A stretch of DNA of 64,000 bases from Verrucomicrobiaceae bacterium (GTDB taxonomy: Bacteria; Verrucomicrobiota; Verrucomicrobiia; Verrucomicrobiales; Verrucomicrobiaceae): contig JAIXOU010000019.1 in assembly GCA_027486585.1 (NCBI GenBank), positions 1 through 64,000 of the forward strand. Direction: 5' to 3'. A model generated the notes under the pieces. The model made no database searches. It saw nothing but the letters and a program-made list of their open reading frames with translations, and was not told where the DNA came from. The first letter of the stretch is position 1; the number at the start of each line of letters is the position of its first letter. The translations under genes and the position numbers were made by a program. Of the stretch, positions 13,999 to 26,323 are shown piece by piece.

Positions 13999-14697
13999 TC
14001 AGATCGCCTTCGATGACCGAAAAGTTCCCTCCAACAAATGATTCTCCAAACAGTAACGGGCTATCTCAGCTGCTGAATGAATCCCGGTCTTCTTGAAAAT
14101 GTTGTGCTTATGCACCGAGACGGTCTTCGCGGACAAATTCAAGTCTAGCGAGATCAATTTCAGCGTCTTGCCCTTAGCAATCTGAAGGAAGATTTCGAAT
14201 TCCCGTTGACTCAAAGCCTTGTGCAACTCTTTTCCGTCCAACGGAACTCTGAGCGCATTCTCTGCGAAGGACTGCGCCACACTACGCGACAGGTATTTCT
14301 TGCCACGGAGTACGGAATCAATAGCGGTGATGACCTCGGCAGGACGAGAGTCCTTGGCAACATATCCGACGGCCCCTGCCTTCAAAGCGCGTTCGATCCA
14401 GGGTGCCTCCAAATGCATGCTAACGATGATCGCCGCTGGAGCGTCACTCATGTGAGAGAGGTAACTCAGCAGCGTTAAACCAGAGCAATCAGCCAACTCC
14501 AAATCAATCAGCGCCACATCAATGCGCACACGTGACAGTTCTTCACGAGCCTCCGCCGCAGTGTTAACCACAAGAATGACGGTCTCATTGTACACCGTCT
14601 GGATGAACTGAGACAAAGTTTCCGCGAACATCGCGTGATCATCAACGATGAGGATGGTTTTGGGATGAAGTCTGGAATGAGTGGATGGATTGGTCAT
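13999..14697 (-). CDS. Response regulator, receiver plus LuxR-type HTH
   Basis: A 232-residue NarL/FixJ-type regulator. The receiver domain has acidic residues at IVDDH, phospho-acceptor Asp at residue 65 (VALIDLELADCSG) and the conserved Lys in YVAKDS. The C-terminal HTH is ALSQREFEIFLQIAKGKTLK through KTVSVHKHNIFKKTGI. It is encoded just downstream of the receiver-kinase gene at 14792-15895 on the same strand, a plausible partner. The gap between them is 94 bases. Confidence 0.9.
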   Translation of the reverse strand: MTNPSTHSRLHPKTILIVDDHAMFAETLSQFIQTVYNETVILVVNTAAEAREELSRVRIDVALIDLELADCSGLTLLSYLSHMSDAPAAIIVSMHLEAPWIERALKAGAVGYVAKDSRPAEVITAIDSVLRGKKYLSRSVAQSFAENALRVPLDGKELHKALSQREFEIFLQIAKGKTLKLISLDLNLSAKTVSVHKHNIFKKTGIHSAAEIARYCLENHLLEGTFRSSKAI

Positions 14698-15939: not shown

Positions 15940-16221
15940 CTAAAGCTTCTCCTTTGCAGCAGGTAGCGGAGGTTGGTTGATCGCCGCCCCAAAAAAGCCC
16001 AGATGACGGACTGCTTTTACAAACTCATTAAAACCCACCGGTTTTACCCCATGGGTATTCACGCCACAATTGGAGCAATCGGTCAGGTTCGGCGCTTTCG
16101 CCGAGGCGCTAAGCATCATGACGGGGGTGTTTTCCAAGTGTGCCTCTGTCTTGAGGACCTTGAGCACCTCAATGCCATCGATTTTCTTTGGAAATGGGTT
16201 AGGTTTGGGGTAGCTCTGCAT
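15940..16221 (-). pseudogene. N-terminally truncated receiver domain (Rcp1-like)
   Basis: A 93-residue frame begins at about the middle of a receiver: KKIDGIEVLKVLKTEAHLEN, then PVMMLSASAK and the conserved-Lys region VKPVGFNEF. The first two strands, the acidic pair and the phospho-acceptor Asp are missing; the frame starts with an unrelated MQSYPKPNPFP. It could still be translated, since a near-consensus copy of the palindrome common to this region sits 19 bases upstream (16240-16251), but it cannot be phosphorylated normally. Confidence 0.65.
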
Positions 16222-16239
16222 AGTCGATATAACGTATTT

Positions 16240-16251
16240 TGCGTTAACCCA
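16240..16251 (-). promoter_or_regulatory. Variant copy of the TGGGTTAACCCA palindrome
   Basis: Reads TGGGTTAACGCA on the minus strand, one base off the perfect 12-bp palindrome found at 21704, 23468 and 26312. It lies 19 bases upstream of the truncated receiver and, like the other copies, is followed by an A/T-rich run. Probably an operator of the same regulator. Confidence 0.5.
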
Positions 16252-16396
16252 AGATAGTCATGCAGCGTGCATTGTTCGACAAGTCGGTCAGAATCTCAAA
16301 GTGGTGTCAGCCTATGGTTTGAGTCTTGTCGGGTGTTTGGCTGACAACGGCTGCGGACATCTGATGACGTGCCGCTGATTGGTTGCATGACGCTAC

Positions 16397-17029
16397 TTAA
16401 TCCACCAGCAGGTGCTTCAGCGCATAGCGGGTCAGTGCCACGTTGGTGGCCAGGCCCATCTTCTTTGAAATGCGATTGCGGTAGGTGCTCACCGTTTTAT
16501 CACTCAGCGCCAGCTCCGCAGCGATTTCCTTGATCGCTCTTCCTTTGGCGATCATCTGCAATACCTGGAGTTCACGGCTAGAGAGTGCCTCGTGGGGTGC
16601 ATGTTGTACGTCGCTGTAGAGGTTGGAAGCCAGTCTTTCCGCGAGTGTTGCGCTCACGTACTTTCCACCGGCCAGAACCTTCTTCACCGCCGCCACCACC
16701 TCTACCGAAGTCTGGCTTTTATTGAGAAAACCCGAGGCGCCCAGCGTGAGAGAACGAATGGCGAACTCCTCCTCCGAATAGGCAGTTAAGACCAGCACCG
16801 GAGTTTGAGGACGCAGCCGTTTCATTTCCTCCAGCACCGCCAAGCCGCTATGACCAGGAATGTTGATCTCCAGGATGATGATGCTCCACTCCTGCGTCAG
16901 AGCCTGCTCCAGGGCTTCCCTGGAATTGGTGGCCTCAGCTATGACCATTTTCGGAAACGCCTCGGTCAATATCTCTCTTAGCCCTCGCCGCAGTATCTCG
17001 TGGTCATCCACGATCAAGACGCTCCTCAC
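16397..17029 (-). CDS. Response regulator with LuxR-type HTH; phospho-acceptor Asp replaced by Glu
   Basis: A 210-residue NarL-type regulator, closely related end to end to the one at 17429-18061. The receiver keeps VDDH and the Lys in LNKSQTS. However, residue 54 is Glu (IIILEINIPG; codon GAG, complementary to CTC at 16868-16870), whereas the paralogue has Asp54. Glu at this site often mimics the phosphorylated state. The HTH (ALSSRELQVLQMIAKGRAIK, KTVSTYRNRI) is intact. The start is GTG, overlapping the stop of a small upstream frame as GTGA. Confidence 0.9.
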   Translation of the reverse strand: MRSVLIVDDHEILRRGLREILTEAFPKMVIAEATNSREALEQALTQEWSIIILEINIPGHSGLAVLEEMKRLRPQTPVLVLTAYSEEEFAIRSLTLGASGFLNKSQTSVEVVAAVKKVLAGGKYVSATLAERLASNLYSDVQHAPHEALSSRELQVLQMIAKGRAIKEIAAELALSDKTVSTYRNRISKKMGLATNVALTRYALKHLLVD

Positions 17030-17232
17030 GCGTGGTGCCTTTGGGTGTCAGGATTGAGTGCCTGAACTCTGCCCTGCCCAGTACTTTGCGGATTCCCGAT
17101 CCGCATCAGAGGTGTCATGTAAACAATTTTCATGTCACGTGGCTGACCTTCCGCCAGCGGGATTTTTTTGGCGTTGGTTATGACTTTATTTTGTCTGGCC
17201 GGAGCGCTCTCAAAGTCATTGATTTTGTCCAT
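17026..17232 (-). CDS. Small hypothetical protein coupled to the Glu54 regulator
   Basis: A 68-residue frame starting MDKINDFESAP and ending NPDTQRHHA, no recognised domain. Its stop overlaps the GTG start of the regulator at 17029 by GTGA, the geometry of translational coupling, which is the main argument for it. The position corresponds to where the paralogous regulator has a kinase gene. It may be real or may be degraded leader sequence. Confidence 0.35.
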   Translation of the reverse strand: MDKINDFESAPARQNKVITNAKKIPLAEGQPRDMKIVYMTPLMRIGNPQSTGQGRVQALNPDTQRHHA

Positions 17233-17428
17233 GGGTGATTTGAGTTATGGTTCGGCAACAAGACCGAAGGATAACCTTACTTACATTCACACAGCACGCA
17301 TCATTTCGCAAGTTGGCTAAAGTCTTGAATCTTTGTCAGCCATGGCCATGAATGCTGTCAGCAGATTGCCTGACAGTCATTGTGGAGATGGGCAGCAAGC
17401 AGGACCAACGAGTGCATCCTTCGGTCAA
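17233..17428. other. Intergenic region between the paralogous regulators
   Basis: No gene is seen. It holds an inverted repeat CTGTCAG (17355-17361) / CTGACAG (17370-17376) with an 8-nt loop, about 50 bases past the stop of the regulator at 17429. This may act as its transcript end. The promoter for the small frame and Glu54 regulator would also be here. Confidence 0.4.
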
Positions 17429-18061
17429 TCAATCCACGAGCAGGTGCTTTAGGGCATAGCGGGTTAGTGCCACGTTGGTGGACAGATCCATCTTAGTTGC
17501 AATGCGGCCTCGGTAAGTGCTCACCGTTTTTTCACTCAGCGCCAGCTCTGCAGCGATCTCCTTGATCGCTTTTCCTTGAGCGATCATCTGCAAAACTTGG
17601 AGTTCGCGGATGGAGAGCGCCTCATGGGGCTCGTGTTCGCTGCTAGCTCCGAGGTTAAAAGCTAGTTTTTCCGCCAACGCTGAGGTGACATATTTCCCAC
17701 CGGACATGACCTTTTTTATAGCTGCCACCAGCTCATCAGAAGTCTGGCTTTTGTTGAGAAAACCCGAAGCGCCCAGCTTGAGCGCACGGATGGCGAACTC
17801 CTCCTCCGAGTAGCCGCTCAATACCAGCACCGGAATGTGCGGGCGCAGACGTTTTATTTCCTCCAGCACCGCCAGCCCGCCTTGACCGGGAATGCTGATA
17901 TCCAGAAGGATGATGTCCCAGTCCTGGGTCATGATGAGTTCCAAAGCCTCCCGTGAATTGGTGGCTTCGCTTGCTTCCATTTGAGGAAACGCGGCTGCAA
18001 AGATTTCCTTGAGGCCGCGTCTTACGGTTTCGTGGTCATCCACGATCATCACATGTTTCAT
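17429..18061 (-). CDS. Response regulator, receiver plus LuxR-type HTH
   Basis: A 210-residue NarL-type regulator with a canonical phospho-acceptor at Asp54 (IILLDISIPG), VDDH at the N-terminus and Lys in LNKSQTS. Its HTH is ALSIRELQVLQMIAQGKAIK. The frame is open further upstream to 18172, but the domain begins at MKHVMIVDDH (ATG 18061), overlapping the 3' end of the kinase gene by 26 bases. The kinase at 18036-19655 is its obvious partner. Confidence 0.92.
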   Translation of the reverse strand: MKHVMIVDDHETVRRGLKEIFAAAFPQMEASEATNSREALELIMTQDWDIILLDISIPGQGGLAVLEEIKRLRPHIPVLVLSGYSEEEFAIRALKLGASGFLNKSQTSDELVAAIKKVMSGGKYVTSALAEKLAFNLGASSEHEPHEALSIRELQVLQMIAQGKAIKEIAAELALSEKTVSTYRGRIATKMDLSTNVALTRYALKHLLVD

Positions 18062-19655
18062 ATGAGGTCCTCTTTCGGGTTGGGATGGCGTGGTTTGGCA
18101 GGCTTGCGGTAACGACGGTGCCATGGTCCTCGTCACGGGTGATGGTGATCTTTCCGCCCAGCAAAGCAGCACGCTCTTTCATGCCGAGCAGGCCCAGCGA
18201 CACCGGGCTCGCGAGTTCTGCTCCGGTGATGCCTCGGCCGTTGTCCTGCACGCAGAGCGTCACCCATCCGGCTTCCGTCTTCAGCTCTACTTTAACCTCG
18301 GACGCCTGGGAGTGCCGGGTGACGTTGGTGAGGCATTCTTCAAAAATGCGGAATAGCGCAGTGGATAGCTCCGGTGGCATTTCCTGTTCTGTTTCCGGCA
18401 GATGCACCTTGCAAGAGATGCCGATGCGTTCATGCAAACGTCTGGCTTCATATTGCAAGGCGGTGCCCAGTCCCAGTTTGTCCAGAACCACGGGGCGCAG
18501 CTCCGCCGCAATCACTTGCACGGAGGTGGTGATGTCATCGACCATTTTTGGCATGTCAGAGAATCGCTGCAAGATGGCGTTGACTGCGGAGCAGCCTAGC
18601 AGCTCTCTGAGCTTCCGCTCCGCCCAGATCAGATCCATCTTGAGTCCGGTCAACTTCTGCCCCAGTTCATCGTGAATCTCCCGGGAGATGCGTGTGGCCT
18701 CCTCCTCACGCACGGTTTGTAGCCGCGCAAGCAGGGAGCGCAATTGAGTGTGAGAGGTCTCGAGAGCGTCCTCAGCCTGTTTTCTGATGGTGATGTCGCG
18801 GATGTTGCACTGGATCACATGGCGCTCTCCGGTGGAGTACACATTGCTGACAAACTCCACCGCGATCATGCGGCCATCCTTCGTTAAGAGAGGCAGGTTT
18901 TCATAACGGACATACCCATCTTTTTGTAGCTGCATCAACTTCTCCTGATTCGAGACGATGTCCCCGAATGGGCTGAGCTCCCAGATAAACCTGCCAACCA
19001 CCTCTTCGTGGGTGAAGCCCAGCAGTTTGAGCAGGAATGGATTCACCTCGTTGATGCGACCAGTATGAGCATCCAGAATCAAGATGCCATCCTGCGCTGT
19101 TTCGAAAAGCTTCCGATACTTCAATTCGGAGGCGCGGATCGCCTGCTCACCCTGCGCTGCTGCCTTTTCGCGGTTCATGCGCTCCGTGATGTCGCGGAAG
19201 TTGCATGCGATGAGACGTTGTTGGTCCACCGTGTAGGAGTTGCTGATGAACTCGACATCGATCATCCGCCCGTCCTTGGTCTCAAGGCACAGTTCCTCGT
19301 GGTGGAGGATGTCTGTGTGTTGCAATTCCGCAAAGGTGGCCTTCGAAGCCGCCTCACCTTTAAAGGGCCCGATTTCCCAAAGTTTTTTCCCCAGAAACTC
19401 CTCCTGGGAGTAGCCGAGCAATCGTTGCATGAACAGGTTGGCGTCCATCACCTGGGCGGTATCTGCGTTTAAAATCAAAATCCCATGTTGGGCCGTTTCA
19501 AACAGACGCCGGTAACGCTGTTCTGAGGCAAGGATCCCCTGCTCATGATGCTCATAGGCCTCTGCTGTTCGGATCACCAGCTGCTCAGTCAGCACCTTGT
19601 GGCCGGGCTTTTGTGCCCTTGGCTGCTCTTTAAATTCGGTTAGTTTACAGATCAT
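18036..19655 (-). CDS. PAS-PAS sensor histidine kinase (NarX/DegS type)
   Basis: A cytoplasmic kinase of about 539 residues. Two similar PAS domains (about 43-156 and 178-288; both contain RLFETAQ(H/D)GILIL) are followed by a HisKA_3 dimerisation helix with the phospho-accepting His in REIHDELGQKLTG (about residue 328). A HATPase_c domain follows with NVTRHSQA, DNGRGI and GLLGMKERA. No membrane segments are seen, so the PAS domains likely sense an internal signal or cofactor. The frame is open upstream to a TTG at 19757, but ATG 19655 (MICKLTEFKE) is more likely, with GAGG about 15 bases upstream. It shares a 26-base overlap with its regulator. Confidence 0.9.
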   Translation of the reverse strand: MICKLTEFKEQPRAQKPGHKVLTEQLVIRTAEAYEHHEQGILASEQRYRRLFETAQHGILILNADTAQVMDANLFMQRLLGYSQEEFLGKKLWEIGPFKGEAASKATFAELQHTDILHHEELCLETKDGRMIDVEFISNSYTVDQQRLIACNFRDITERMNREKAAAQGEQAIRASELKYRKLFETAQDGILILDAHTGRINEVNPFLLKLLGFTHEEVVGRFIWELSPFGDIVSNQEKLMQLQKDGYVRYENLPLLTKDGRMIAVEFVSNVYSTGERHVIQCNIRDITIRKQAEDALETSHTQLRSLLARLQTVREEEATRISREIHDELGQKLTGLKMDLIWAERKLRELLGCSAVNAILQRFSDMPKMVDDITTSVQVIAAELRPVVLDKLGLGTALQYEARRLHERIGISCKVHLPETEQEMPPELSTALFRIFEECLTNVTRHSQASEVKVELKTEAGWVTLCVQDNGRGITGAELASPVSLGLLGMKERAALLGGKITITRDEDHGTVVTASLPNHAIPTRKRTSYETCDDRG

Positions 19656-19987
19656 GGGTTTATAAGAGTCCTCTGTGGAGTTTGAAAGGATCTTGAATGT
19701 TCGTGGCAACTTTGAATTATAGTTTTTTACCACTATTTGAACGACGAGGATATACAATTATTGGAGTGTGAGATGAGGTGCGCAATTCATGAGGAACATG
19801 GCGCAATCATAGCAGTATAGGGTCGCGTAAACCTTGGGGTCTTCACCCCACGCGGGTTCTCATTGAACTCGCGCGCTGCCTGTCACCCAAAGAAAAGCTA
19901 CCCATCACAGAGAAAGAGCTTCGTTCTCAAACGCTCACCACAGCGTGTGTGGCGTAATGAAACCAAGCTGTTGAACGGTTCCGAGAG
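19656..19987. other. Intergenic region upstream of the PAS kinase
   Basis: No coding frame is convincing. It should contain the promoter of the kinase-regulator pair (minus strand) and the transcript end of the receiver gene at 19988-20398. No clear hairpin plus T-run was found. Confidence 0.4.
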
Positions 19988-20398
19988 TCACTTGGCCAGT
20001 CCAAGGGAGATGTAGCTTTGACCTTCCAGCGTCTTTCGAATCGCTTCAAATAACTCACCCCAAGGAGTACCCTTGGCCACGTAGGAGCTGGCCCCTGACT
20101 GCATGGAGCGCGTCACGAAGATGCTTTCCTGGTTCATGGAGACTGCGATCATAAGCGGCGGACGCGTCAGAGTTCGCAGTTCGGAAATGAGATCCAGCCC
20201 AGAGCTATCCCCCAGCTCAATGTCCACCAGGGCAATGTCATAGCAGCGCAGCCTAGCTTCAGCCATGGCCTCGGTACTGCTATTCACGGCAGCGATCGTG
20301 GCTAGGGGGAATTCAGCCTTGAGCATGGCTTTGAATGCCCCGCGGACAAGGGCACTATCATCGACGATCAACACGCTAAACGGCAAGTCTGAAGACAT
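19988..20398 (-). CDS. Stand-alone receiver domain protein
   Basis: A 136-residue receiver with IVDDS, phospho-acceptor Asp59 (IALVDIELGDSSG) and conserved Lys in YVAKGTP. The protein ends just after the last helix (SYISLGLAK), so it lacks the DNA-binding domain of its relatives here (compare 13999-14697, with similar VDIELGDSSG/IDLELADCSG). It may be a phosphate sink or a truncated regulator. It lies 21 bases downstream of the kinase-like gene at 20420-21136. Confidence 0.85.
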   Translation of the reverse strand: MSSDLPFSVLIVDDSALVRGAFKAMLKAEFPLATIAAVNSSTEAMAEARLRCYDIALVDIELGDSSGLDLISELRTLTRPPLMIAVSMNQESIFVTRSMQSGASSYVAKGTPWGELFEAIRKTLEGQSYISLGLAK

Positions 20399-20419
20399 TC
20401 GGCAGTATGGTGTAAGGGT

Positions 20420-21136
20420 TTACTGTGCGGCCGTGAGTGAACCTGTTGGTGCACATGCGATGACGCCGATACGCACGCCCCCCATTTGCGGCGCCTCGCA
20501 GACATAGATCTCGCACGCCGCAGCCGCACATCTTGCCCTGACCACTGCAAGTCCGCCTGCTACCTCGGGACAGGTCCATAGTTCATCGCAGCCATCGTGG
20601 TCAATGGCTACATTGATCCGATTCTTCTGTGACTGGCTGATGACCGCAATCTTACTTGCTCCAGAGTAGCTGATGCACAGAGAGATCAACGACTGGACGA
20701 TTCGGAAAAGGTTCAGCCGAGAGGCGAGCGGTAACTCGGGCTCCTCACCCTTCGTGTCCAGTGTCACCGAACCTGGGAACTGGTCTCTGAGGCTTGGCAA
20801 ATGCTGCTGAAGGGCTGAGTTGAGGCCGAAAACTTTCAAGACCGGTGGGAACTGAGCATTTGTCAACTCACGCACCACCTGAAGCCCTTCCCTTAACGAC
20901 GAATCGAGTTGGGTCAGCAATTTCACAGTCTTCGAAGAGGCTAGTTTGGGATCGAGTTCCAATCGAACGAGTTCCGCGACGGCCGCGCTAGCGACGAGTG
21001 TCCCCGCCACGTCCCTGTGCAGGTTGGTGGCTAGGGCAATGCTTTGGGCATCAAGGTCACGGATCACGTGCTGCAATCCCAACCACACGGCCTCAGCGCT
21101 TGGCTGGCTTACAAAGTCAGGAAGTTTGGATGTCAT
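20420..21136 (-). CDS. Degenerate histidine-kinase-like protein
   Basis: A 238-residue protein that follows the HisKA_3/HATPase layout. LATNLHRDVAGTLVASAAVA (His40) resembles the phospho-accepting helix, RIVQSLISLCISYSGASKIAV corresponds to the N-box helix, and GGLAVVRARCAAAAC to the lid/G2 region. The N-box Asn is replaced (SLISLCISYS), and the G1 motif is DHDGCDELW rather than DxGxG. ATP binding is therefore doubtful. It may be a pseudokinase or phosphotransfer scaffold for the receiver encoded next to it. No sensory domain or membrane segment is present. Confidence 0.7.
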   Translation of the reverse strand: MTSKLPDFVSQPSAEAVWLGLQHVIRDLDAQSIALATNLHRDVAGTLVASAAVAELVRLELDPKLASSKTVKLLTQLDSSLREGLQVVRELTNAQFPPVLKVFGLNSALQQHLPSLRDQFPGSVTLDTKGEEPELPLASRLNLFRIVQSLISLCISYSGASKIAVISQSQKNRINVAIDHDGCDELWTCPEVAGGLAVVRARCAAAACEIYVCEAPQMGGVRIGVIACAPTGSLTAAQ

Positions 21137-21758
21137 CGGTTATTCAAATAAACTATTCTGGCCATGATTCACCGTGCGCCGAATTCCCCAAGTTACCAGC
21201 TTCGCAGGGAAGGGTGACTATCCCTTGAGATGAAAGAAATCAGAAGGTGAGTGGATTCATGGCAAGGTGAAGTGGGATCGTCGGGCAGGAGCAAAGCTGA
21301 TAGCCACCTCCAGACCTTCCCCATAGTCGTGATTTCTTCGTTTAAAGCTAGATTTATTGTTCGTGCATTGATGGCCAGTCAGATCTTTAGAGCGGCCATC
21401 TTGTCCTTCCTCTCTAGCAGGCCGTCTATCAGGGCGCGGGCCTTCTAAATCCTATGCCGGTGAGGCTGGTTTGTGTTCAAATGCCGGCCTCTCTCAGAGG
21501 CGGCAAGCGGTAGGCCTGAATCGTCTCCATCTTGTTGATCCACGGCTTCCCTGCAGCGCATGTTTCAGCCTGCGCTTGAGGTTTCTGCAAAACAGATCAA
21601 AAACCAAGCTGAATAGAGGTCGATTTCGTATGGCTGATGGGTTAATCAATAAAAACCAAGCGATCAATCACAAGGTCTTAGTGATTATACTTATTTTATA
21701 TTATGGGTTAACCCATTAATAACCTATCAGCAAATTAGGGATACGGTTAATTTCGATT
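21137..21758. other. Long intergenic region at a divergent boundary
   Basis: About 620 bases between the minus-strand kinase-like gene and the plus-strand NlpC/P60-like gene. Short frames exist but none has a convincing start or a recognisable product. The last 100 bases are A/T-rich and carry the perfect palindrome at 21704-21715, so at least the promoter of the rightward gene is here. Confidence 0.5.
21704..21715. promoter_or_regulatory. TGGGTTAACCCA palindrome upstream of the NlpC/P60-like gene
   Basis: A perfect 12-bp palindrome 43 bases before the GTG start at 21759, directly after a TATATT-like hexamer. Identical copies occur at 23468-23479 and 26312-26323, each less than about 100 bases upstream of a gene start. 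Confidence 0.65.
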
Positions 21759-22559
21759 GTGAACTTAACTGGATCAGTCACTTCCTTCGGGAACCTCATC
21801 TTCATCGTTGTGCTCTTTGCCTCAAATGGGCTCGGCCAAGTGTCGTACCAGGAGGCGGGGAGTCGCTATTACCAGCACGCCAGTGAGGCGGCACGAGCGG
21901 CCCAATGGGTTGACTATCATTCCCGCCAGGCTTGGCAGAATCCATGGCAGCAGGACCTCGTTGCCCTTGCTTGGCAGTGGAAGGCTTACGAAACCCACCA
22001 GCGTCAGTGGGCCGCCTACTACCAGCAGTACGCATACGCACAATCGGTTACGTACTCCCAGCCTCCTACCGCGCAGTCCCAGCCTCCAGCCACGCACTCC
22101 AAGTCTCTTACCACGACGCCTCAGTCCCAGGCCATCGGCGGCCTCCAGTCACCTATCGTCATGCGTGGCAGCCAGGCCTATGGCCATACCAGTCTGCCCT
22201 CCGTCCTTCAGCGCATGATCCAGGCTGGCAACGCCCTAAAAAACAAGCCCTACATCTTTGGCGGCGGCCACCGCCAGCTCGAGGACGTGGGTTACGACTG
22301 CTCCAGTTCGGTGTCATACATGCTCATCAAGGCTGGGCTGTTAAACCAGGTGCTCACTTCCAAGAGCTTCGCCGACTATGGCGCATCTGGGCCCGGGCGC
22401 TATGTCACCCTTTGGATAAAACCCGGGCATCATGTCTTCATCACCATCTGCGGACTGCGCTTTGACACCACCGGTGGTCAGGTGGCAGATGGGCCACGTT
22501 GGCGTAAGACGGACCGCAGCCTCAGCGGATTCATGCCACGCCATCCACACGGGCTGTGA
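21759..22559 (+). CDS. Secreted NlpC/P60-like peptidase
   Basis: A 266-residue protein starting at GTG. It has a signal-like N-terminus (NLIFIVVLFASNGLG), then a Gln/Tyr/Trp-rich low-complexity region with repeated SQPP(T/A) pieces (about residues 30-130). A C-terminal domain follows with PYIFGGGHRQLEDVGYDCSS, where the Cys before SSS is the expected nucleophile of the NlpC/P60 family, and KPGHHVFITICG, where a His sits at the expected second catalytic position. It probably cleaves peptidoglycan stem peptides or acts on the envelope. A copy of the TGGGTTAACCCA site lies just upstream. Confidence 0.75.
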   Translation: MNLTGSVTSFGNLIFIVVLFASNGLGQVSYQEAGSRYYQHASEAARAAQWVDYHSRQAWQNPWQQDLVALAWQWKAYETHQRQWAAYYQQYAYAQSVTYSQPPTAQSQPPATHSKSLTTTPQSQAIGGLQSPIVMRGSQAYGHTSLPSVLQRMIQAGNALKNKPYIFGGGHRQLEDVGYDCSSSVSYMLIKAGLLNQVLTSKSFADYGASGPGRYVTLWIKPGHHVFITICGLRFDTTGGQVADGPRWRKTDRSLSGFMPRHPHGL

Positions 22560-22575
22560 CCGCCCTTCAGCCGAC

Positions 22576-23001
22576 ATGAGACGTACTTCGAAAAAGACGG
22601 ATAGGAGCGCAGCCTCCTTCCAACAGGATGCCGGCCTGTTACTACTCCGGCTTGGCCTGGGCCTACCCATGTTGTTGCAGCATGGGCTGCCCTACTGGAG
22701 GCAGTTTCAGGAAGAAGCTTCAAGCTTTCTTAGCGTCTTCGGTCTTGATGCCCGTACTACTCTTGTCCTAACCATCGCTGCCGAAGTCGGCGCATCCCTG
22801 CTCATGATCGCTGGGTTATTCACTCGTGCTGCATCACTTCTCTTTGCTGCCACTATGGCGGTGGCTTTTGTCGTCGTCCACGGTGCCAGCTTCGAGGGGG
22901 AGCAATCCGGAGAGCTGGCCTTCCTTTACTTCATCGGGTCGGCCTCTCTCATCATCATGGGGCCGGGGCGCTTCTCATGGGATTGCTACAAGAACGCCTA
23001 G
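22576..23001 (+). CDS. DoxX family membrane protein
   Basis: A protein of about 141 residues with four predicted membrane helices: LLLLRLGLGLPMLLQHGL, LVLTIAAEVGASLLMIAGLF, ASLLFAATMAVAFVVVHG and LAFLYFIGSASLIIMGPG. The GLPMLLQHGLP and GSASLIIMGPGRFSWD motifs are typical of DoxX (PF07681). The frame is open back to 22432, but ATG 22576 fits the domain and avoids overlapping the upstream gene. It starts 16 bases after the NlpC/P60-like stop, so the two are likely one operon. Role in redox or membrane stress is known only for some relatives. Confidence 0.85.
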   Translation: MRRTSKKTDRSAASFQQDAGLLLLRLGLGLPMLLQHGLPYWRQFQEEASSFLSVFGLDARTTLVLTIAAEVGASLLMIAGLFTRAASLLFAATMAVAFVVVHGASFEGEQSGELAFLYFIGSASLIIMGPGRFSWDCYKNA

Positions 23002-23040
23002 CCTGACCTGCTGACTAACTTCAACCTGTTATCTCCATTC

Positions 23041-23108
23041 AGCCACGCGGCAGTCCGTGCTAGTCATGAAACTCGACTGCGACTTTCGGTAAGCTCACAT
23101 AGGCGGCG
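23041..23108 (+). repeat. Direct repeat, copy A
   Basis: Shares a block of 20 identical bases (ATGAAACTCGACTGCGACTT, 23066-23085) and weaker flanking similarity with copy B at 24418-24485. In this copy the frame from the ATG stops after eight codons. Confidence 0.55.
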
Positions 23109-23467
23109 TCTCGTGGCGACTTTCATGAATAGATCAAGCTAGGGCGGCAAACACGTTCACATGACTGCACAGGGCTAACGCATGAAACGAGCGCTTGAAT
23201 ATGACTCGCGGCTAAAATGGGCTTGCTTCAAGAGATAGCGGCGCACTGGTCAATCAATCCTTTGGCACGTCAGCGTCTTGGATTCGTCTGTGAAGACAGC
23301 CGTCTTGGGAAGACTTTACCCAAGATATTTAGCTGGTAAATCACTAACTGGCGGTGGCGCTCGTACGCCACCGCCAGCCAATAGCCAGAGGCGGAAAGGA
23401 CAAACAAAAACCGTCCCACCTCGAGTTTTATATTCATGACAAATAAGAATGAATACAAAACCAACAA

Positions 23468-23479
23468 TGGGTTAACCCA
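23468..23479. promoter_or_regulatory. TGGGTTAACCCA palindrome upstream of a response regulator gene
   Basis: A perfect 12-bp palindrome 91 bases before the start at 23571, followed by AATAAAA. It is the same site as at 21704 and 26312. Confidence 0.65.
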
Positions 23480-23570
23480 AATAAAAGCAGGCGGCTGAGC
23501 AGCGTTCGAGTTAATCCATAACCTTATTCGTCGCCAACAAAGGCTCACTAACTTCACGATCTCACCGCAG

Positions 23571-24260
23571 TTGAAAACCCAGCCTCAAACTAGACGCGTC
23601 GGACTCGTGGAAGACGATCGGGTGATACGCACCTTTCTCACTGCACTGCTACAAAATCAGGCTGGGGTGGAGTCTGTGAAGACTTGGGAGTCAGCGGAGG
23701 ATTTTGCAGCCAGTTCTTTGGCACGAAAGGACCTAGACCTTCTGTTGGTGGATTTGAATCTACCTGGTGAGAGTGGCATTTCAGTGATTCAAAAAATGCA
23801 GCAAGAGCAGCCTGAGTTACCTTGCATTGTGCTGACTTCCTCCAGCGATCCCCAGGATGTTTTTGATGCGATGCGGAGCGGTGCATCTGGATATTTAGTC
23901 AAGGATTCGAATCCGGATGAACTGCTCAGCAGTATTCGAATGGCCATCCATGATGGTGTCATCTTGAGCCCGGTTATCGCCAAACTTCTTGTGAATGAAT
24001 TTCTGAGCAAGGGGAAAGCCGCTCCAATCGACTCTGCTTACATTCCAGGTGGGGTAAAAAGCCTGACCAATCGCGAGATTGAAGTGCTTAAAATGATTTC
24101 AATGTTTGGTTCAGCCAAGGCGACGGGGGAAGCTCTGGGATTGAGCCATGAAACCATCCGTGTCCACATGAAAAGGATTTACCAAAAACTTCACGTTAGA
24201 TCAAAGACTCAAGCGGTGGCCGTCTGGCATCAAGAGAACTCCAAAAAACATGGTCTTTAG
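23571..24260 (+). CDS. Response regulator, receiver plus LuxR-type HTH
   Basis: A 229-residue regulator with VEDD at the N-terminus, phospho-acceptor Asp61 (LLLVDLNLPGESG), conserved Lys in YLVKDS and HTH SLTNREIEVLKMISMFGSAK through HETIRVHMKRIYQKLHV. The apparent start is TTG at 23571; no ATG lies close to the domain start and no strong ribosome binding site is visible. No kinase is adjacent on this strand. The upstream palindrome at 23468 suggests it belongs to the regulon defined by that site. Confidence 0.88.
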   Translation: MKTQPQTRRVGLVEDDRVIRTFLTALLQNQAGVESVKTWESAEDFAASSLARKDLDLLLVDLNLPGESGISVIQKMQQEQPELPCIVLTSSSDPQDVFDAMRSGASGYLVKDSNPDELLSSIRMAIHDGVILSPVIAKLLVNEFLSKGKAAPIDSAYIPGGVKSLTNREIEVLKMISMFGSAKATGEALGLSHETIRVHMKRIYQKLHVRSKTQAVAVWHQENSKKHGL

Positions 24261-24417
24261 GCTTGTGCTGACTCACTTCCCCTAGCCACGGGAAAATGAA
24301 TGGCAGCAGTAGAGTGTTTGAGAAAAGCCATTCTACAGCCATAAGCCTTGGGTGCCGAAACATAGACCGCTTTATCCACCGACTGACTCCGAGGAAGTTA
24401 CTCCCACTTCCACACTC

Positions 24418-24485
24418 AGCGCAGCGAAGTTCGGTGCTATCCATGAAACTCGACTGCGACTTGCTGGAAGCTCACCTTGGCGGTG
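24418..24485 (+). repeat. Direct repeat, copy B
   Basis: Counterpart of 23041-23108 about 1.38 kb away (identical block 24443-24462). Here the ATG opens a 26-codon frame (MKLDCDLLEAHLGGVELVLK..., stop at 24521-24523). Nothing identifies a product. The surrounding interval 24261-24514 holds no other gene. Confidence 0.5.
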
Positions 24486-24514
24486 TTGAGCTTGTTTTGA
24501 AAGGCATTGAGCAT

Positions 24515-24712
24515 TTAGCGTAAAACAGGAATGGCTGACCGCCGATTTGCATCCGTCCTTGATTCCACAAAGCTTGTTGTGCCTTTTGCAACCTCACGGA
24601 TCAGTTTATCGACAAGTGTCTTGCTGACTTTCTTCGACAGAAGGGCTTCGTCTTCGATGATTTGGCAGCACTCCGTGATGCCAAGAAGGCCAAAGATGGA
24701 ACAACTACCCAT
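24515..24712 (-). CDS. Small hypothetical protein overlapping the end of the receiver gene
   Basis: A 65-residue frame beginning MGSCSIFGLLGITECCQIIE, no domain recognised. Its ATG lies inside the last codons of the receiver gene (the upstream stop TAG is at 24705-24707), an overlap consistent with coupling in the H-NOX operon. Helical, charged composition. Judged plausible but unproven. Confidence 0.4.
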   Translation of the reverse strand: MGSCSIFGLLGITECCQIIEDEALLSKKVSKTLVDKLIREVAKGTTSFVESRTDANRRSAIPVLR

Positions 24713-25667
24713 GGTTTGGTTGTTCTTCAGCCTGGTGCTTCTCTTTTGCGAATCGTGACAGTATGTCGTGCAGGGAGGATACGTCGAAGGGCTTGGCAAG
24801 ATAGTCGTCCATGCCTGCTTCTAGGCAGCGCATGCGGTCCCCAGGCATTGCGCTGGCCGTCATGGCGATGATTCTACAGGTGGATTGTGCAGCGCCAGAT
24901 TGAATTTCAAGTTCACGGATTCGGCGGGCAGCTTCATAGCCGTCCATGACTGGCATTTGGCAGTCCATGAGAATGGTGTCGTAAGCGTGCTCTTGATGCA
25001 TTTGGATTGCTTGTTTGCCATTGGCTGCGATGTCAGTATCACAGCCCATCTTCTGTAGCAGCAAGACCGCGAGTCTGGCGTTTGCTTGATTATTCTCAGC
25101 CACGAGCACCCTCAGTCCGAGATGTCGGCTGAAGTCTCGAAGCTGTTGAAGCGATTTACGGATCGCATTCTGCTGCAACGGACGTGAGAGCTGGTTCCAG
25201 TCGTCAGGAATCCTGATGCCTTCGGGGGCTGCCCGGGTCACTATGATTCTTGGCACGTTTGAGGAGACTTGTTTCCGCCATTTATCAAGAGCTCTAACTA
25301 AAGTAGTGTTCAGCCAGGAACCATCAATGATGAGAACATTAGGTGGCGGGCCCTTTTTGCGCAGGTCAGCTTGCAGCTCGGCAACGCTCGTGATCTGCCG
25401 CAAAGTTATCTCAGGACTTTGCATAGCCGACAGAATGGATTCGCGAACATTTTCAGAGTCGTCGGCAACCCAAAGGGCAATTGAGCAGGATCTTGGCTGC
25501 GAGTCCGCAGTCTGCATCACCGAACTGATCAAAAATGGGATGCGCAACCAAAAGCGTGAGCCTATGCCAGGCTTGGTCGCCCCTTCGATCTCATCGTTTG
25601 TGAGATCAACGAGTGCGAACGGAAAGCGTTCTTTTAGCTGAGGCCATGGTGAATAGGGTGCATTCAT
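24705..25667 (-). CDS. Truncated hybrid kinase: ATPase tail, pseudo-receiver and receiver
   Basis: A 320-residue protein. Residues 34-45 (GIGSRFWLRIPF) look like the last strand of a HATPase_c domain; everything before it (dimerisation helix, N- and G1-boxes) is absent. Residues about 61-180 resemble a receiver without phospho-acceptor. Residues 186-310 form a full receiver with phospho-acceptor Asp235 (ILMDCQMPVMDGYEAARRIR) and Lys in DDYLAKPF, although the acidic pair reads EN. It looks like the C-terminal half of a BarA-like hybrid kinase. It is 21 bases downstream of the H-NOX gene, where a hybrid H-NOX-associated kinase is commonly encoded. Confidence 0.8.
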   Translation of the reverse strand: MNAPYSPWPQLKERFPFALVDLTNDEIEGATKPGIGSRFWLRIPFLISSVMQTADSQPRSCSIALWVADDSENVRESILSAMQSPEITLRQITSVAELQADLRKKGPPPNVLIIDGSWLNTTLVRALDKWRKQVSSNVPRIIVTRAAPEGIRIPDDWNQLSRPLQQNAIRKSLQQLRDFSRHLGLRVLVAENNQANARLAVLLLQKMGCDTDIAANGKQAIQMHQEHAYDTILMDCQMPVMDGYEAARRIRELEIQSGAAQSTCRIIAMTASAMPGDRMRCLEAGMDDYLAKPFDVSSLHDILSRFAKEKHQAEEQPNHG

Positions 25668-25688
25668 GACTTGGATTCAAGGGGTGCT

Positions 25689-26234
25689 TCAAACCTTCCA
25701 ACTTACCTGAAAGACATCATGATCTGCTCCGTCGTCCTGCCGTTGCTCATGGCAAAGGGTGACCGGTGTTGCAAACATTTCCCCGAGGCCGTCCAGAAGA
25801 CCAATGACAAATGCTGACAGGCCACGCCGATGACTTCGATAGTGCAGACGCAAAGAATTCTTTTCGACGTCGGAGCACTCAAACTCCGGCGGTCTCAATG
25901 CCGGCATCATCACGATGCGTGTATGAAAATTTGGCAAATTCGCCAGAAATTCTCCGAGCGACTTACCTCCAGCCTTCATGAGGTGCCCGTAACCCTCTTG
26001 GGTTGTCTTCAGGATCCACCAGCGACCAAATTCATTCAGCACCACTTCAGCTGGCACGGCCAGAACCGCCGATGCTGCAGCCACCAGTCGAAAAGTGAGC
26101 TCGTCTGGGTAGGTTTCGCTAGAGATGAACATTTCCTCTTCCACCCCTGCTTGCTGCCGGATGTTCTCCCAAACCCCTGCACCATGATTTGTGACGATCA
26201 AATCTTGGACTGCTTTGTTGACCATTCCGTACAT
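25689..26234 (-). CDS. H-NOX heme nitric oxide/oxygen sensor
   Basis: A 181-residue H-NOX domain protein (PF07700). The N-terminus MYGMVNKAVQDLI is typical, the proximal heme ligand is His104 in NFHTRI, and the heme-propionate motif YxSxR is present as YRSHR (residues 132-136) with Pro115 before it. In bacteria such soluble proteins bind NO at ferrous heme and control a kinase or cyclase encoded next door. Here the adjacent gene is a hybrid kinase lacking its catalytic core. A perfect TGGGTTAACCCA lies 78 bases upstream (26312-26323). Confidence 0.93.
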   Translation of the reverse strand: MYGMVNKAVQDLIVTNHGAGVWENIRQQAGVEEEMFISSETYPDELTFRLVAAASAVLAVPAEVVLNEFGRWWILKTTQEGYGHLMKAGGKSLGEFLANLPNFHTRIVMMPALRPPEFECSDVEKNSLRLHYRSHRRGLSAFVIGLLDGLGEMFATPVTLCHEQRQDDGADHDVFQVSWKV

Positions 26235-26311
26235 GAGTTTTGTTGAATTTGGGTTAGACGATTTAGGTTACCTCAACTTCCTCCATAACCACTGTTAGAT
26301 AACTGGTTTTA

Positions 26312-26323
26312 TGGGTTAACCCA
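26312..26323. promoter_or_regulatory. TGGGTTAACCCA palindrome upstream of H-NOX
   Basis: A perfect 12-bp palindrome, 78 bases before the H-NOX start on the minus strand; downstream it continues TAAAACC. It is the third perfect copy in the signalling region. Confidence 0.65.

Follow-up and report, generated by a model that had tools for sequence, protein, structure and literature searches.

A genus-restricted palindrome as the probable operator of a gas-sensing regulon in Verrucomicrobiaceae

The stretch of DNA considered here, called the window, comprises the first 64,000 nucleotides of contig JAIXOU010000019.1 from a Verrucomicrobiaceae bacterium (assembly GCA_027486585.1). It contains a gene for an H-NOX protein and several copies of the twelve-base palindrome TGGGTTAACCCA, which, judged by its conservation among related genomes, is a real operator restricted to one genus of the family. 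The palindrome probably governs a small regulon and would be bound by the NarL/LuxR-type response regulator encoded at 23571-24260, the best candidate, and by its orthologues. The initial annotation of the window had proposed a common regulator linking gas sensing and envelope genes, and this idea is supported by sites at H-NOX, FIST, NlpC/P60-like and regulator genes. The sites, their conservation and pairing, the context and order of the adjoining genes, and the co-occurrence with the regulator are read directly from the genomes.

Perfect copies begin at positions 21704, 23468 and 26312 of the window, spanning 4.6 kilobases (kb), and a copy with a single mismatch, TGCGTTAACCCA, lies at 16240; re-reading of the sequence confirmed all four positions claimed earlier. 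The claimed distances to the start codon, 43 base pairs (bp) for 21704 and 91 bp for 23468, are correct, while those for 26312 and 16240 are 77 and 18 bp instead of 78 and 19 bp. With up to two mismatches allowed, the window holds 7 matches against 1.14 expected, a number reached by none of 100 shuffles, and the arithmetic expectation for perfect copies is 0.004 per 64 kb. The whole genome (6.5 megabases, 147 contigs) contains 5 perfect copies and none of the reversed control, so that the frequency does lie far above chance, as had been claimed. All five perfect copies sit 43 to 92 bp ahead of a start. The two outside the window precede a second H-NOX gene on contig C72 (92 bp ahead, with a one-mismatch copy 49 bp away) and a gene for a secreted protein on contig C94 (C94:68503; L147 10003-10014; 86 bp ahead). 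The initial annotation had named as the decisive objection that the motif might be equally common inside genes; tested genome-wide, the perfect motif is not. The three perfect copies of the window also overlap small frames of 82 to 95 amino acids, which are taken as spurious. With up to one mismatch, the genome has 18 places (the 5 perfect ones included) compared with 10 for the control; single-mismatch matches on their own are therefore near background, and only perfect or paired sites are telling. The A/T-rich run said to follow each copy is present on the gene-proximal side and recurs in relatives as an A-run (43 aligned sites).

The comparison set consisted of 48 genomes of the genus, among which G000 is the assembly of the window (contigs C1, C52, C72 and C94). 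Together they contain 28 perfect copies of TGGGTTAACCCA, and 17 of these precede H-NOX, FIST/NosP-like, LuxR-type response-regulator or NlpC/P60-like genes. The H-NOX genes of the genus split into two clades, with a support of 100/99 for clade A in the H-NOX tree. In clade A the operator lies no more than 125 bp from the start in all 17 genes; in 16 of them it has at most one mismatch, and in G060 it takes the form of a pair of two-mismatch sites spaced by 49 bp. It is absent from the 11 H-NOX genes of sister clade B and from 14 more distant outgroup genes, which represent 14 of the 76 outgroup loci. Paired sites 48 to 51 bp apart, with no more than four mismatches summed, are found at 14 of the 17 clade-A genes, the partner site missing in G003, G037 and G059. 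Neither such a pair nor a site with up to one mismatch occurs in any of 572 control upstream regions, which were taken from all frames of at least 150 amino acids, some doubtful ones included, in 83 operator-free loci (76 outgroup, 7 clade-B).

Among all 4,096 twelve-base palindromes, TGGGTTAACCCA ranks first, being present in 12 of the 12 clade-A promoters used, while the best-ranked unrelated palindrome is found in 1 of 12; this enumeration covered 12 of the 17 clade-A genes, with three near-copies and two later-found genes omitted. A follow-up on 18 of the genomes was partly blind, as G050, G055 and G059 had already been met in the motif search. Its truly blind H-NOX positives are G051 and G060, the latter with two-mismatch sites only. 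One H-NOX fragment (L235, G046) was left unscored. Outside the genus, the best 80 of 91 H-NOX loci from named genomes include four with a site of up to one mismatch within 300 bp, and these four are the loci with an H-NOX identity of at least 66%. The closest named H-NOX proteins, at this same level of identity, belong to Verrucomicrobiaceae or Verrucomicrobia bacteria. In the other 76 H-NOX loci (806 kb), two copies with up to one mismatch occur anywhere, which is about the chance number.

A second sensor family carries the palindrome as well. By Pfam, its members consist of FIST and FIST_C domains (116.6 and 50 bits for the G000 protein on C52). Against the NCBIfam NosP equivalog the protein reaches 63 bits, below the cut-off of 450, and is therefore termed NosP-like rather than NosP. 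Sites with up to one mismatch are present in 10 of 12 FIST/NosP-like promoters, namely in all 6 from the first 30 genomes and in 4 of the 6 from the remaining 18. They are accompanied by another copy, in some cases degenerate, at a distance of 43 to 45 bp, or 50 bp in G038. In G038, G003, G023, G001 and G000 the gene after FIST encodes a kinase of 738 to 784 amino acids, and the product in G000 is a hybrid kinase by Pfam. An exact search of 47 genomes for two GGTTAACC cores 29 to 48 bp apart returned 10 places, and none for the control. Nine of them lie at H-NOX genes (G000, G050, G023 and G038, where the region is common to H-NOX and FIST), at FIST genes (G001, G006, G023, G059) or at the regulator gene (G014); the tenth, inside a large unrelated coding sequence of G000, is taken as chance. 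Separately, a FIST gene sharing 74% identity with the G000 gene was found near H-NOX in a Verrucomicrobia subdivision 3 genome (L097 9220-10413), without the operator.

The envelope side of the regulon would be represented by secreted proteins such as the product of 21759-22559, which we take to be NlpC/P60-like, a name given in the initial annotation on the basis of a motif. Over the C-terminal 134 to 147 amino acids this protein is about 50% identical to operator-bearing homologues in G038 and G003, the three being mutually about 46 to 51% identical in this part. The homologue in G023, 45% identical, also carries a site. Sites with up to one mismatch precede 6 of the 7 NlpC/P60-like genes met, a count that covers the islands examined and not whole genomes. 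In G038, a 12 kb island unites an NlpC-like gene whose sites are 39 bp apart, FIST with its kinase, H-NOX with a kinase of 1596 amino acids, and the regulator, which has a perfect site 328 bp upstream. The intergenic region common to H-NOX and FIST in this island contains three sites 49 to 50 bp apart, one perfect and two with 2 to 3 mismatches.

The candidate binder has the domain layout of a response regulator with both a REC domain (PF00072, 87.2 bits) and a GerE domain (PF00196, 51.1 bits). Its nearest NCBIfam model is NarL (NF007935), against which it scores 119.3 bits, below the cut-off of 250, so that it is NarL-like but not NarL; the NarL DNA-binding domain structure is among its best PDB matches. 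It is the best candidate because its gene is mostly convergent to the H-NOX kinase gene, largely tracks the operator and often has a site of its own, and because its recognition helix differs in the clade without sites. Orthologues are convergent to the H-NOX kinase gene, or to its remnant, in the window and on C72 as well as in G038, G003, G001, G002, G037, G059, G022 and G017. A site with up to two mismatches within 800 bp upstream was found for 9 of 13 members of the regulator clade, sometimes ahead of the preceding co-directional gene, and for none of 4 RR2 paralogues, 4 clade-B regulators and 3 other regulators of the window. Regulators met later that have such a site are those of G051, G050 (C79) and G046 (C335), while the upstream sequence was too short for scoring in G058, G050 (C84) and G046 (C345).

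Across the 48 genomes, regulator and clade-A H-NOX are found together in 13, H-NOX only in 2, the regulator only in 5 and neither in 28 (Fisher p 3.5e-6, kinship ignored). G014 has no H-NOX, yet the paired site is kept before its regulator gene. No relative of the regulator was found in the 76 outgroup H-NOX loci (E 1e-10). The residues of NarL that read bases presumably correspond to R, V and K in the helix of this regulator. Operator-linked regulators have the helix SHET[VI]R[VA]H, compared with SYETVR[DE]Y in clade-B regulators. Helix 9 of GerE-type domains is the one that reads DNA, according to PMC4549865 and PMC9263151. The helix pattern missed the regulators of several loci, including L164-L166, L169, L170, L173 and L247; the helix of L247 (G057) was read by eye and the others were left unread. 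The initial annotation had sought the binder among the LuxR-type regulators encoded here, which suits the one at 23571; the regulators at 13999, 16397 and 17429 were set aside, as their recognition helices differ and the 800 bp upstream of them contain no site with up to two mismatches.

Several observations weigh against this assignment of operator, regulon and regulator. Of the perfect copies in the genus, 11 of 28 are away from known targets, the FIST genes of G046 and G053 have no site with up to one mismatch, and the NlpC-like gene of G037 has only a three-mismatch site. No site with up to two mismatches lies within 800 bp upstream of the regulator gene in G059, G022, G037 and G017, although in G017 a site with a single mismatch is found some 940 bp upstream, where the operon begins; of the regulator genes met later, those of G053, G060 and G046 (C72) lack one too. 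The regulator and H-NOX kinase genes of G023 are not neighbours but lie about 14 kb apart. In five genomes the regulator occurs although clade-A H-NOX is absent, and the reverse holds for two, both of them fragmented assemblies (G006 is 74% complete); an absent regulator here mostly means that the best match of the genome is below 45% identity. The second V of SHETVRVH is replaced by A in G037 and G057, both counted as having the regulator. A comparable regulator of G007 (helix SHETIRAHLKK, 42% identity), near which there is no site, was not counted; including it would slightly weaken the co-occurrence. The genomes of the genus are related and hence not independent, and several are fragmented. 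Finally, the H-NOX kinase of the window has suffered an internal deletion and is without HisKA and most of the HATPase domain.

This last point concerns the route from sensor to regulator. A proximal haem histidine and a Y-x-S-x-R motif are the defining features of H-NOX. The H-NOX protein of the window carries His104 and Y132-x-S-x-R136, and its gene and operator are intact. His104, Y132 and R136 are invariant in 42 aligned H-NOX proteins (one partial, gaps excluded), and position 134 is S in clade A and T in clade B. In the adjacent kinase remnant, alignment shows the first 19 amino acids fused in frame to the end of the HATPase domain and the receiver. HNOBA, HisKA and a full HATPase_c are not found in it, the receiver being the only domain detected. 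A product equal to it in length and arrangement, and somewhat diverged in sequence, is encoded in G050 (L188 1059-2021), and the short form, found thus in two genomes, may have been kept. Given the deletion, the H-NOX protein of the window probably signals via another kinase or not at all; the alternative kinase might, for example, be the intact one beside the second H-NOX gene on C72.

From these data we infer a circuit that specifies the binder, the ligand, the path of the phosphate and the control exerted. A gas, most likely nitric oxide (NO), would bind to the haem group of H-NOX and also to that of the FIST/NosP-like protein in genomes that have one. The hybrid kinase partnered with the sensor would shift its activity on gas binding, and its phosphate would pass to the NarL/LuxR-type response regulator. 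A dimer of this regulator would then bind the palindromes, often as two copies about 43 to 51 bp apart, in the promoters of H-NOX, FIST, its own gene or operon, and the secreted NlpC/P60-like genes. The outcome would be joint feedback control of sensors and regulator with an envelope output. Inspection by eye of promoter hexamers around the sites revealed no consistent -10 box, so that activation and repression cannot be told apart. A shared operator of this kind would link H-NOX and NosP-type sensing directly at transcription and define an NO-sensing regulon in Verrucomicrobia. It would also provide a handle for finding the outputs of such a regulon, including secreted NlpC-like enzymes.

A different protein could bind this operator and serve the regulon, for example the excisionase-type HTH_17 protein encoded next to some of the H-NOX islands or a repressor whose gene lies elsewhere in the genome; this is considered unlikely, though it has some points in its favour. 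HTH_17 genes with one- or two-mismatch upstream sites occur in G003, G002, G000 (C72) and G050, and in G037 the HTH_17 gene is fused to a response regulator. Island-type HTH_17 genes (E 4e-26 or better) are, however, present in just 5 of 47 genomes, namely these five. All the other genomes, including the operator-bearing G038, G022, G023, G059, G051 and G060, yield no more than generic HTH_17 matches (E 1e-17 or weaker), while the response regulator is found in all these six. The HTH_17 protein was accordingly rejected as a universal common regulator on its distribution. As an observation on the gene itself, HTH_17 and response regulator form one frame of 291 amino acids in G037 (L144 999-1874), a possible gene fusion.

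Conservation by mere descent, or a non-regulatory role of the palindromes as recombination site, mobile-element end or RNA structure, is highly improbable. Some of the compared promoters do come from close relatives, and the genome has only its five perfect copies. Yet unrelated promoters (H-NOX, FIST, NlpC-like, regulator) carry the palindrome while their flanks differ, the spacing is fixed for H-NOX as well as for FIST apart from G038, and none of the 572 control regions has a site. Chance clustering of a 12-mer is less credible still. It could draw on the near-background number of sites with up to one mismatch in the genome and on the 11 perfect copies away from known targets, but 25 perfect copies fall in the 20 genomes that encode the regulator or clade-A H-NOX as opposed to 3 in the other 28, and the unbiased search for pairs returns almost only sensor and regulator genes. 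The ranking of all twelve-base palindromes and the contrast between the H-NOX clades likewise contradict it already. The NarL/LuxR-type regulator acting on a genuine operator remains the favoured reading.

Sister clade B appears to have a palindrome of its own. In 7 of 11 clade-B H-NOX promoters, CCTCA-NN-TGAGG is present with up to one mismatch. CCCCC-N8-GGGGG is likewise present in 7 of 11. The best in six shuffles was 2; the palindrome lies in C-rich sequence, and this shuffle control is simple, so that a stricter one is needed. The palindrome reads approximately CCCCTCA-NN-TGAGGGG and lies roughly 70 to 130 bp before the H-NOX starts, for example in L206, L208, L210, L211, L230, L231 and L234. 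It is tentatively proposed, with somewhat more doubt than confidence, that one response regulator joins two unrelated haem NO-sensor systems, H-NOX and the FIST/NosP-like protein, in one regulon via paired palindromes, and that regulator and operator have diverged together (TGGGTTAACCCA with SHETVRVH versus CCTCA-NN-TGAGG with SYETVR[DE]Y). If true, this co-divergence would represent a natural switch of operator specificity between paralogous gas-sensing circuits. How NarL-type regulators change their DNA specificity could be examined on these two diverged clades as a natural test case.

By analogy of described roles, the nearest known system would be the HnoC network of Shewanella. According to the review PMC8738867, HnoC of Shewanella oneidensis is a transcription factor that is phosphorylated in the H-NOX/kinase pathway and acts on transcription of the hno genes in a feedback loop. 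Both cases would involve transcriptional feedback on NO-signalling genes. Unlike HnoC, the candidate here is of the NarL/LuxR type (GerE) with a defined paired palindrome, and the regulon would include FIST/NosP-like sensors and NlpC-like genes. NarL/FixJ-type regulators such as NarL, NreC and DosR share the REC and GerE layout of the 23571-24260 product. The sites bound by NarL are inverted heptamers such as TACCCCT-AA-AGGGGTA (PMC4549865), and NreC binds a palindromic region rich in GC (PMC8139620). In contrast to the NarL site, the present palindrome TGGGTT-AACCCA has no half-site spacer and TGGG outermost, and the helix is SHETVRVHMKK. With a hybrid histidine kinase gene behind the gene for the FIST and FIST_C protein, the arrangement here resembles NosP/NosK. 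NosP controls its kinase in an NO-dependent manner, as described in PMC12570481. The output given there is related to cyclic di-GMP (c-di-GMP), with NosR containing a degenerate HD-GYP domain, whereas a transcriptional regulon common with H-NOX is proposed here. H-NOX and NosP-type proteins are usually described as routes into kinases and c-di-GMP (PMC8738867, PMC12570481). Within the open-licence full-text literature, TGGGTTAACCCA was met only in work on fungal xylanase and not as a bacterial operator. For GGGTTAACCC in bacterial promoters, no listed title or abstract start in that literature concerned a bacterial operator, and nothing was found there on haem and NO in planctomycetes. Measured against this open-licence literature, novelty appears to lie in the operator, in the candidate NarL-type regulator and in the combination of two families of haem sensors.

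The features of the window are collected in Table 1. The spacing of the pair at 26264 and 26312 equals that kept in relatives. The proposal of a shared regulator applies to the copies at 21704, 23468 and 26312. It does not extend to the copy at 16240, which is repeated solely in a near-identical stretch of G050 and was rejected as a member of the regulon; the receiver score of the gene behind it is slightly below the cut-off of 30.2 bits.

Table 1. Positions of the palindromes and associated genes in the window.
Feature	Position	Strand	Remarks
C-terminal half of receiver domain	15940..16221	-	profile positions 54-111 of 111, 29.4 bits
One-mismatch copy	16240..16251		18 bp before truncated receiver gene
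Second, weaker site TGGGTTAATCAA	21638..21649		2 mismatches; 66 bp from 21704 copy
Perfect copy of predicted operator TGGGTTAACCCA	21704..21715		43 bp before NlpC/P60-like gene
Secreted NlpC/P60-like cysteine-peptidase-type protein	21759..22559	+	no Pfam or NCBIfam hit
Perfect copy of predicted operator	23468..23479		91 bp before response-regulator gene
REC-GerE (NarL/LuxR-type) response regulator	23571..24260	+	helix SHETIRVHMKR; candidate operator binder
Remnant of H-NOX-associated hybrid histidine kinase	24705..25667	-	320 amino acids
H-NOX (HNOB, PF07700)	25689..26234	-	163.8 bits; cut-off 25.5
Weak second site TAGGTTACCTCA	26264..26275		3 mismatches; 48 bp from perfect 26312 copy
Perfect copy of predicted operator	26312..26323		77 bp before H-NOX gene

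Some further observations were made near sites outside the window. The C94 copy is repeated only in G050 and stays unproven as a member of the regulon. The secreted-protein gene behind it lies a few genes before polysaccharide export genes (Poly_export), a possible link to exopolysaccharide. On C1, a bacterial tubulin gene (Tubulin, Tubulin_C; L008 1713-3012) is 200 bp from a one-mismatch site, which is probably there by chance. Bacterial tubulin is known from Prosthecobacter. A last observation concerns the second H-NOX island on C72 (L145 9948-18292), together with L133, L139, L140 and L187. Its genes include a divergent DUF3050 gene, one of the aKG-HExxH peptide beta-hydroxylase type (TIGR04267) and a second regulator, with secreted proteins bearing RQGRGADD-type repeats further on. 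The island might be a peptide-modifying cluster under gas control.

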